In this document: positions 7,484 to 13,122 of the stretch, piece by piece
Layout: every line of letters starts with the position of its first letter
Numbering within the stretch: the first letter of the stretch is position 1
Virus record (IMG/VR): IMGVR_UViG_3300008448_006361
Location: 1-20,365 of that record
Origin: a virus
DNA length: 20,365 nt
Reading direction: 5' to 3' (one strand)
Translations under genes and position numbers: made by a program
The notes under the pieces: generated by a model
The model's input: the letters and a program-made list of their open reading frames with translations, nothing else
Told to the model about the DNA's origin: nothing
Databases searched by the model: none

Positions 7484-7729
7484 ATGAACACAGAAAAAAG
7501 AAACAGTTTATTTGTAGTGTCTTACTTTGCATTAGGACTATTTGGTGGTTGGATTATGGGGTCAGTAAGACCTGTTCCAGGCATGAAACCAGAGCATAAT
7601 ATTAAGCCTGAATACTACATTGAATTAAAAGGTAATGGATCTGCTATAATAGAAGATCTTGGCGGTAACACCTACACTTGCCCAACAATTGAAGACATAC
7701 CAAATGTATTAATTAAAGACAACTTGTAA
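7484..7729 (+). CDS. Single-pass membrane protein (paralogue of the gene at 1404)
   Basis: An 81-aa protein with the same plan as the 75-aa gene at 1404: charged start MNTEKRN, a membrane segment at about 8-29, a variable linker (here longer, with GMKPEHNIKPE), then YYIELKGNGSAIIED, TYTCP and the ending DNL. It is not followed by a terminator hairpin; the next ORF starts one base after the stop, so unlike its paralogue it is part of an operon. Identity is highest in the membrane segment and the ending, which suggests these matter most. Function unknown. Confidence 0.85.
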   Translation: MNTEKRNSLFVVSYFALGLFGGWIMGSVRPVPGMKPEHNIKPEYYIELKGNGSAIIEDLGGNTYTCPTIEDIPNVLIKDNL

Positions 7730-7999: not shown

Positions 8000-8073
8000 G
8001 GTTCCATAGCTCAATTGGATAGAGCAACACACTTCTAATGTGTAGGTTACAGGTTCGACTCCTGTTGGAATCA
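8000..8073 (+). tRNA. trnR: tRNA-Arg (anticodon UCU)
   Basis: A full cloverleaf can be drawn: acceptor GGTTCCA/TGGAATC (one G-U), D stem GCTC/GAGC, anticodon stem ACACA/TGTGT with loop CTTCTAA, five-base variable loop, T stem ACAGG/CCTGT with loop TTCGACT, and discriminator A. Loop positions 34-36 are TCT, reading AGA (and AGG) arginine codons. No CCA is encoded. The loop keeps U33 and A37. AGA is the arginine codon used most in these AT-rich genes, so codon supply is the simplest role. A terminator follows at once. Confidence 0.95.
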
Positions 8074-8077
8074 CTAT

Positions 8078-11042: not shown

Positions 11043-11789
11043 ATGATTATGAAGATGATTGGAAAAGATCTTAAGATCAAACACACAACAACTTATTCAA
11101 CTTTCTCTGTATTACCTATGAACAGAGGTATTGATAGCAAACATGTACAGAAAATGATTACAAGTCTTAGACTACAAGGCTGTGTTAGAGTAGTAATATG
11201 TTGTAGGACTAACATTATTGAAGGTGAATGGAAAACCTACATTATTGATGGTCAGCATATGGCTACTGCATTAGAAAGAGAAGGGGCACCAATTCCTTAT
11301 ATTGAGGTTGAGATTACATCTGAAGAAGATCTTATTGAAAAGATGGCATATCTTAATAACTCATCTAAGTCTTGGGACATGATGAACTTTATCAATGCTT
11401 GGAAAATGATCCGCCCAGACTACATGAAGTTGTTTAAGTGGAAGAACATGTATGACATTGAGATTACCATGTTAGCAATTATTGGTGTTAACAATACTGC
11501 AATTCAAAAAAGTACTGGAGTAATTAAAACAGGAAACTTCAAAATTACTAATCCAAATGCAGAAGATATGTGTAAAGCATTCAATGATATCTTCTTAAAG
11601 ATTGGTAAGTCTGACAGAGCTGTTAAGTTTCAGTTTTTGAATGCATTCATGCAAGCATACAATCCAAAGTATGACCATAACAAAACCATGGCTGCTATTG
11701 ACAAACACCTTAAAACTGTTAAGTTGATGGCTATTGGTGATGAGACTGGTGCATTTATTAGAAAACAAATATTTAAACTTCCAAAGTAA
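11043..11789 (+). CDS. ParB/Srx-like domain protein
   Basis: A 248-aa protein. The N-terminal 90 residues match the ParB-type N-terminal fold: a start like LPMNRGIDSKHVQKMITSLR, a strand (VRVVICCRTN) and the signature YIIDGQHMATALEREG (66-81), where DGQH replaces the usual GxRR/DGhHR motif, then PYIEVEI. The remaining 150 residues are helical and may bind DNA. ParB-type domains bind CTP or nick DNA; which applies here is unknown. MKMIG at 11049 is an alternative start. The stop shares its last base with the start of the helicase gene, so the two are coupled. Confidence 0.75.
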   Translation: MIMKMIGKDLKIKHTTTYSTFSVLPMNRGIDSKHVQKMITSLRLQGCVRVVICCRTNIIEGEWKTYIIDGQHMATALEREGAPIPYIEVEITSEEDLIEKMAYLNNSSKSWDMMNFINAWKMIRPDYMKLFKWKNMYDIEITMLAIIGVNNTAIQKSTGVIKTGNFKITNPNAEDMCKAFNDIFLKIGKSDRAVKFQFLNAFMQAYNPKYDHNKTMAAIDKHLKTVKLMAIGDETGAFIRKQIFKLPK

Positions 11790-12880
11790 TGGATAGACAA
11801 GACATCCAATTTGAGGCACTGTCTGCAACTGATGGTAAACAGAAATGTTCTGTTGTATTAGGCACAGGGGTCGGTAAGACCCTTGTTGGCCTAAACTATA
11901 TTAACAGGAATTCAACTCCGTTAATGAAGGTACTGGTTGTAGCACCAAAGAAATCAATATTCCAGTCATGGAAAGATGATGCGGTCAAGTTTGATATGCA
12001 ACATCTATTAGGTAGAATTGTATTTACTACTTACCTCAGCTTGAATAAGTATAAGCCTGGTGACTTTGATATGGTCTGTTTGGATGAATGTCATTCCTTG
12101 CTAGATAGTCACAGAGGCTTTTTACAATTATATAAAGGGAAGATACTGGGTTTAACCGGTACTCCTCCCAAGTATAAAGATTCAGAGAAAGGTAAGTTAG
12201 TAAATGAATTCTGTCCTGTAGCATATACTTTCAAAGCAGATGATGCTATAGAAAATGGGATACTCAATGATTATCAGATCATTGTACACCAGCTAGAGCT
12301 TGATACTAATAAAACCTACCCTGTAGCAATGAAAACTAAAACTTTCAAAACTTCAGAGTATGACAATTACAAGTACTGGTCTAACAGACTAGAAACAAGT
12401 TCTGGACCTGTGCATATACTCAGAGTTATGCGCATGAAGGCAATGATGGAGTATCCAACTAAAGAAAGGTATGCTAAGAAACTAATGGAGTTTATTACTA
12501 CCAAATGTATTCTTTTTGCTAATACTCAAGAGCAAGCTGATAGGCTGTGTCAACATAGTTATCATAGTAACAATTCTGAATCTGAGATTAACTTAGAAAT
12601 GTTCAAGAAAGGTACTATAACTAAACTATCCACAGTACTACAGCTTAATGAGGGTGTTAACATACCTAATCTTAGACAAGGTATCATTATGCATGCATAT
12701 GGTAATGAGAGAAAAGCTTCTCAGAGAATAGGTAGATTACTCCGCCTTAATCCTGATGAGAAAGCTATTGTCCATATACTATGTTATATGGGTACTGTAG
12801 ATGAGAGATGGGTTAAAGAAGCTCTTGAAACATTTGATCAGAGTAAAATACTCTGGAAAGATTACGGAATAAAACTATAA
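11789..12880 (+). CDS. SF2 DEAD/H-box-type DNA helicase (ATPase)
   Basis: A 363-aa two-domain motor. Motif I GTGVGKT (25-31), Ia VVAPKKSIFQSW (50-61), II DECH (99-102), III TGTP (123-126), and in the second RecA domain QLNEGVNIPNLRQGI (motif V region) and QRIGRLLRL (motif VI, 312-320, with arginine fingers). ATP hydrolysis drives DNA unwinding or translocation, as in the RecG/UvsW/Type III Res families. It has no extra nuclease or zinc domain. It is coupled to the ParB-like gene upstream and the ClpS-like gene starts two bases downstream. Likely role: replication fork or recombination intermediate processing. Family call is secure; substrate is inferred. Confidence 0.93.
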   Translation: MDRQDIQFEALSATDGKQKCSVVLGTGVGKTLVGLNYINRNSTPLMKVLVVAPKKSIFQSWKDDAVKFDMQHLLGRIVFTTYLSLNKYKPGDFDMVCLDECHSLLDSHRGFLQLYKGKILGLTGTPPKYKDSEKGKLVNEFCPVAYTFKADDAIENGILNDYQIIVHQLELDTNKTYPVAMKTKTFKTSEYDNYKYWSNRLETSSGPVHILRVMRMKAMMEYPTKERYAKKLMEFITTKCILFANTQEQADRLCQHSYHSNNSESEINLEMFKKGTITKLSTVLQLNEGVNIPNLRQGIIMHAYGNERKASQRIGRLLRLNPDEKAIVHILCYMGTVDERWVKEALETFDQSKILWKDYGIKL

Positions 12881-12882
12881 TT

Positions 12883-13122
12883 ATGGAACTACCTGAAGAT
12901 CACAAACTCATCTTGTATAATGATGAGACTAATAGTTTCCCTTATGTTATGGCATGTCTTGTTAGATTCTGTGGACATGAACCACAACAAGCAGAACAAT
13001 GTGCTTTAGTTGCTGATCTTGTAGGTCAGTGTACTGTAAAACATGGCTGTTGGGCACAAATATCAACAATGGCAGAACTTCTTGAAAGTGTTGGCTTAAC
13101 TGTTAAAATATCAACATTGTGA
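12883..13122 (+). CDS. clpS: ClpS-like N-degron adaptor
   Basis: A 79-aa protein that covers nearly the whole ClpS core. LYNDETNSFPYVMACL (11-26) matches ClpS L.NDd.t..eyV...L, AEQCALVADLVGQC matches A..la..vH..G, and LLESVGLTVKI matches the C-terminal L...gl.l. Asn13 and Asp14, the equivalents of E. coli N34/D35 that hold the substrate N-terminal amine, are kept. The third pocket residue, His66 in E. coli, falls on Asp45. ClpS brings proteins with N-terminal Leu, Phe, Tyr or Trp to ClpAP; this version could redirect or block that. The stop overlaps the GTG start of the next gene. Confidence 0.8.
   Translation: MELPEDHKLILYNDETNSFPYVMACLVRFCGHEPQQAEQCALVADLVGQCTVKHGCWAQISTMAELLESVGLTVKISTL

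Follow-up and report, generated by a model that had tools for sequence, protein, structure and literature searches.

The clpS-like gene and its neighbours

We analysed positions 1 to 20,365 of a viral record from IMG/VR (IMGVR_UViG_3300008448_006361), and we refer to this whole stretch of 20,365 nucleotides as the window. An open reading frame at 12883-13122 starts with ATG, encodes a product of 79 amino acids and is packed between a helicase gene and a small gene. The features of the locus are as follows:

11043-11789: ParB-like gene (PHROG 12305), between the HNH and SF2 helicase genes
11789..12880, plus strand: SF2 helicase (ResIII / Helicase_C), conserved upstream neighbour, ending 2 bases before the clpS start
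12844..12882, plus strand: TAA stop in frame, followed by 12 codons among which there is no ATG, GTG or TTG, upstream of the clpS ATG
12883..13122, plus strand: clpS-like gene, 79 aa, without N-terminal extension (open reading frame call, PF02617, fold, relatives)
12919..12924, plus strand: codons for N13 and D14 (N34 and D35 in E. coli), a pocket pair that does not vary (phmmer alignment, phage-clade sequences)
13015..13017, plus strand: Asp45 codon GAT at the E. coli His66 position (alignment; His, Asp or Asn among phage relatives)
13119..13388, plus strand: 89-aa gene g13119, conserved downstream neighbour, whose start overlaps the clpS stop

The order HNH, (ParB), SF2 helicase, clpS, g13119 is conserved in more than 100 contigs, most of which have the start of g13119 at the stop of clpS. 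Joint translation with the helicase is suggested by the clpS start, 2 bases past the helicase stop. The product of g13119 has no match in Pfam or PHROGs. Judged by spacing, the ParB-like gene appears to be present in some relatives and absent from others. Between 12900 and 15500, comparison with one related contig (L033) indicates a mosaic. To either side, L033 and the window mostly agree at 94–99% identity; over clpS and the genes that follow, identity drops to 80–92% and lower, which puts clpS at the border of a stretch that was exchanged. Elsewhere the window carries a tRNA-Arg with anticodon TCT (8000-8074). It also encodes, at 1404-1631 and 7484-7729, a pair of small proteins that resemble each other (MNSEKRNALFVVTYFALGLFGGW... 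and MNTEKRNSLFVVSYFALGLFGGW...); both are probably anchored in the membrane, and the pair looks like a duplication.

The window protein is a ClpS with an altered pocket residue

The protein encoded at 12883-13122 matches the ClpS family of Pfam (PF02617), for which the cut-off is 23 bits, at 49.8 bits (E 2.9e-13), and the PHROGs database returned no match for it. Its AlphaFold model has a mean pLDDT of 93.9, and the top structural matches of the model are ClpS proteins: E. coli ClpS (3o2b_A) superposes with Z 14.9 and an rmsd of 1.1 over 78 residues, and the ClpS proteins of Caulobacter, Mycolicibacterium and Arabidopsis give Z values of 14–16. Thus, we conclude that the window protein is a genuine ClpS, and its description in an earlier note, made from the sequence alone, as a ClpS-like protein with the ClpS core length is borne out by both the Pfam score and the structural match. 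A C-terminal tail of the form E-x-x-[M/L]-[H/Y] (for example YEGDMH) is conserved in 74 of 87 unique relatives; the window protein and its 97% identical relative L001 are without this tail (13105-13122) and both end in KISTL.

Based on phmmer, residues 4–50 correspond to residues 25–71 of E. coli ClpS, ungapped and at a constant offset of 21. This places N13 on N34, D14 on D35 and D45 on H66, as the earlier note had proposed for the Asn-Asp pair and for the histidine site. The structural match to E. coli ClpS, a comparison of the kind that it had put forward as a check, likewise speaks against a misplaced residue. The alignment is free of gaps and the confident model matches ClpS structures; therefore the Asp45 observation is right. 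That it could be an artefact of alignment or sequencing has practically no probability, given the ungapped alignment, the structural match and the recurrence of the residue in dozens of independent contigs; nothing was found in favour of it. Thus, the pocket residue that contacts the substrate alpha-amino group in E. coli, His66, is absent and replaced by Asp45. The gatekeeper, Met40 in E. coli ClpS, is Phe19 in the window protein.

Distribution of histidine and aspartate at site 45

All 45 close viral relatives (73–97% identity) have Asp at site 45. Wider scans assembled a phage clade that, apart from the window protein, numbers 86 unique sequences, a few of them fragments cut at contig ends; here site 45 is Asp in 52, His in 33 and Asn in a single relative (AAC; L314:3001-3252). 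The earlier note had named conservation of Asp45 in homologues as a sign of adapted function; Asp is conserved in the close relatives and alternates with His in the wider clade. Free variation at this position, which the note had given as a refutation, is ruled out, since the only residues seen are His, Asp and, once, Asn.

Outside the phage clade the histidine is uniform. We compiled 78 unique Bacteroidota ClpS and 50 more retrieved by searching 395 Bacteroidota genomes, divergent ones included; all 128 have His at the pocket site, so that none of the Bacteroidota ClpS found by the wider profile carries Asp there. A scan of genome contigs with a profile of the window's own clade found no close bacterial relative.

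On a tree of 103 sequences in which column 45 was masked, at least five changes between His and Asp are needed (bootstrap 5–6), of which three are forced by the well-supported branches alone; the protein is too short to resolve many forks of this tree. Each change from His to Asp requires one base, CAY to GAY. In the closest comparison, between L255 (Asp) and L257 (His), there are 11 synonymous and 2 non-synonymous changes, and one of the latter is site 45 itself. As far as these sequences go, Asp has replaced His throughout the window's own clade, and the same change recurs among related phages.

The phage clpS is under purifying selection: the median dN/dS is 0.15 for the window's clade, and for other members of the phage clade it is 0.29. 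Residues N13, D14, Y21, A24, L26, C30, H32, Q36-C40, G48 and G55 are unchanging within the phage clade. By these alignments, site 45 is neither frozen nor free, and alternates inside a conserved pocket.

The N-terminal extension is absent across the phage clade

Canonical ClpS proteins have an unstructured N-terminal extension that enters the unfoldase pore, and this is not present in the window protein. Only 7 residues precede Lys8 of the first strand, compared with 28 in E. coli ClpS and medians of 22 in Bacteroidota and 21 in huge phages. The same 7 residues are counted in 72 of 86 unique phage-clade sequences, and nine have 19 residues, with another in-frame ATG where the start normally lies. 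The 12 in-frame codons upstream of the window gene contain no ATG, GTG or TTG and thus leave no room for an extension from a common start codon. We looked for an upstream start that could supply one; there is none in the window, and contigs L330-L347 carry an additional in-frame ATG 12 codons ahead of the usual start, which they keep too. The extension is absent clade-wide, from His and Asp forms alike.

In E. coli, the ClpS extension enters the ClpA channel and ClpA pulls on it to deliver substrates; blocking its entry inhibits ClpS-assisted degradation (PMC9663308). The charged contacts of E. coli ClpS with ClpA, given in PMC12493166 as Glu79, Glu82 and Lys84, correspond to Ala58, Ser61 and Met63 in the window protein; at these positions Bacteroidota ClpS, too, depart from E. 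coli. These substitutions make docking on the N-domain of ClpA or ClpC uncertain. ClpS cores without the extension retain binding to ClpA and to N-degrons and deliver poorly.

Affinity of the phages and Clp partners

The nearest cellular ClpS are almost all in Bacteroidota records, which points to that phylum as the source of the gene and perhaps as the host. Among other proteins, DnaB shares about 30% identity with Crassvirales, and for the SF2 helicase the match is to Flavobacterium phages, at about 31%. The head protein of a relative has Leptolyngbya phage Lbo-JY46 as its nearest match (28%), and a crAss head protein was matched in one of 12 records, weakly.

Twelve records of the phage clade carry one ClpS copy each. 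A search for a phage-encoded unfoldase partner gave no Clp_N match in 15 records, and no ClpP was found in the 12 phage-clade records. With neither in these 12 records, any partner unfoldase must be that of the host.

Comparison with known ClpS proteins

The window protein resembles E. coli and Caulobacter ClpS in its fold (Z 14–15), core length and Asn34/Asp35 pair, and differs from them in having no extension, Asp for His66, Phe for Met40 and none of the E79, E82 and K84 contacts. Its nearest cellular relatives, the Bacteroidota ClpS, are 40–50% identical and share Phe19 and the QAEQC motif, but keep the histidine and an N-terminal extension. The ClpS of huge phages (LR756502, LR745206, LR756504 and relatives) are likewise phage-borne and 38–47% identical to the window protein, whereas they retain the extension and, in 43 out of 43, His at the pocket site. 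Three huge-phage contigs of 242–436 kb (L062, L058 and L069) have 1–3 ClpP genes and no Clp_N unfoldase.

Both phage ClpS and Asp at the pocket-histidine site, the latter in Leptospira ClpS1, were already known. Phage ClpS was noted earlier in Agrobacterium phage Atu_ph07 (PMC6102473). Among isolated phages, distant alignments place Glu at the pocket site in Atu_ph07 and Lys in GAP32, and place His there in Phosso, PA5oct, Kaldavass and an Acinetobacter record. The ClpS-like protein of Vibrio phage 2.275.O (AUS02627.1) shares two traits with the window protein, an Asp where the histidine would be and hardly any extension, but it is unrelated, very distant in sequence, has a C-terminal extension and comes from a phage with a Vibrio host. 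In the open-access literature, we found no report of ClpS in crAss-like phages or of a phage inhibitor of ClpS.

A further comparison is with ClpS1 of Leptospira interrogans (LinClpS1), which, according to PMC12493166, has Asp (Asp62) for the pocket His, keeps the Asn/Asp pair and has lost the Lys84 contact with ClpA, as in the window protein. The same source describes how LinClpS1 binds ClpA with a Kd of 0.44 uM and inhibits both its ATPase activity and the degradation of ssrA substrates. LinClpS1 differs from the window protein in being cellular and in having a 22-residue N-domain and a Tyr gatekeeper where the window protein has Phe (PMC12493166).

Possible function of a ClpS core without its extension

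The reading that we favour, tentatively and at somewhat less than even confidence, is that the window gene encodes a ClpS core incapable of delivery and competing with the host's own ClpS for the unfoldase, for N-degron proteins or for both, with its pocket retuned by the change from His to Asp. Such a protein has retained the ClpS fold and the greater part of its N-degron pocket and has lost the N-terminal extension. Such a core would dock on the N-domain of the host Clp unfoldase, hold N-degron proteins, or do both, and would thread no tail into the unfoldase pore. Host ClpS would be outcompeted, N-degron proteolysis would be lowered during infection, and phage or host proteins would be spared. 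With Asp45 the substrate alpha-amino group would still face a hydrogen-bond acceptor, which now carries a charge; as Asp45 can accept hydrogen bonds from the alpha-ammonium and adds negative charge, we expect binding to be retuned rather than lost, with a shift in affinity or residue preference. The recurrence of the His-to-Asp change is consistent with a retuned pocket. The fold, the invariant Asn-Asp pair, the missing extension, the conserved gene position and the purifying selection are likewise observed and favour this reading, as does the occurrence of both traits in the unrelated Vibrio phage 2.275.O. Against it stand the ClpA-contact positions, which leave docking uncertain, and the chance that the Bacteroidota partner is ClpC instead of ClpA and needs no extension.

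The earlier note had raised altered specificity and an anti-ClpS decoy as the two consequences of the changed residue. The decoy idea gains support mainly from the loss of the extension, a trait also of the sisters that have His. Asp45 alone is no proof of a decoy because LinClpS1, with an N-domain of its own, has this residue (PMC12493166) and yet binds and inhibits ClpA.

There is a lesser but real chance that the protein is a working adaptor of altered specificity, bringing other N-terminal residues to host ClpA/ClpC-ClpP so that chosen host proteins are destroyed, with the extension dispensable when the unfoldase is that of the host. An invariant pocket pair beside one residue that switches among His, Asp and Asn would fit this, as does the proposal that jumbo-phage ClpS bring targets to host ClpAP (PMC7824862). 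However, Bacteroidota and huge-phage ClpS do have the extension, which serves delivery in E. coli (PMC9663308).

We consider it unlikely that the N-degron role has gone and the pocket has been repurposed for a different ligand, be it another N-terminus, a phage protein, the helicase or the product of g13119. The tight linkage of clpS to the SF2 helicase gene and g13119 and the lost ClpA-contact positions would be explained in this way, but the Asn-Asp pair and the overall pocket are retained, and His persists in many sisters whose gene lies in this same place. Still less probable is relaxed constraint, by which the pocket fell into disuse once the extension was lost and His gave way to Asp by drift through a single C-to-G change. 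The one-base step in His/Asp pairs such as L255 and L257, and the loss of His from the unrelated ClpS of Atu_ph07 and GAP32, agree with drift; against it are the low dN/dS, the invariance of N13/D14 and other core residues, the fixation of Asp in a clade of 25% divergence and the restriction of the site to His, Asp or Asn.

Returning to the competitor that we favour, an extension-less ClpS in this group of environmental phages may block or retune the host N-degron pathway, in which ClpS selects proteins for degradation by their N-terminal residue, rather than serve it. Sister phages that have either His or Asp at the alpha-amine-binding position of the same extension-less ClpS, down to the nearly identical L255 and L257, constitute a natural test. 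Comparing them would bear on the role of the residue at site 45 and on whether these phages block N-degron proteolysis or hijack it.
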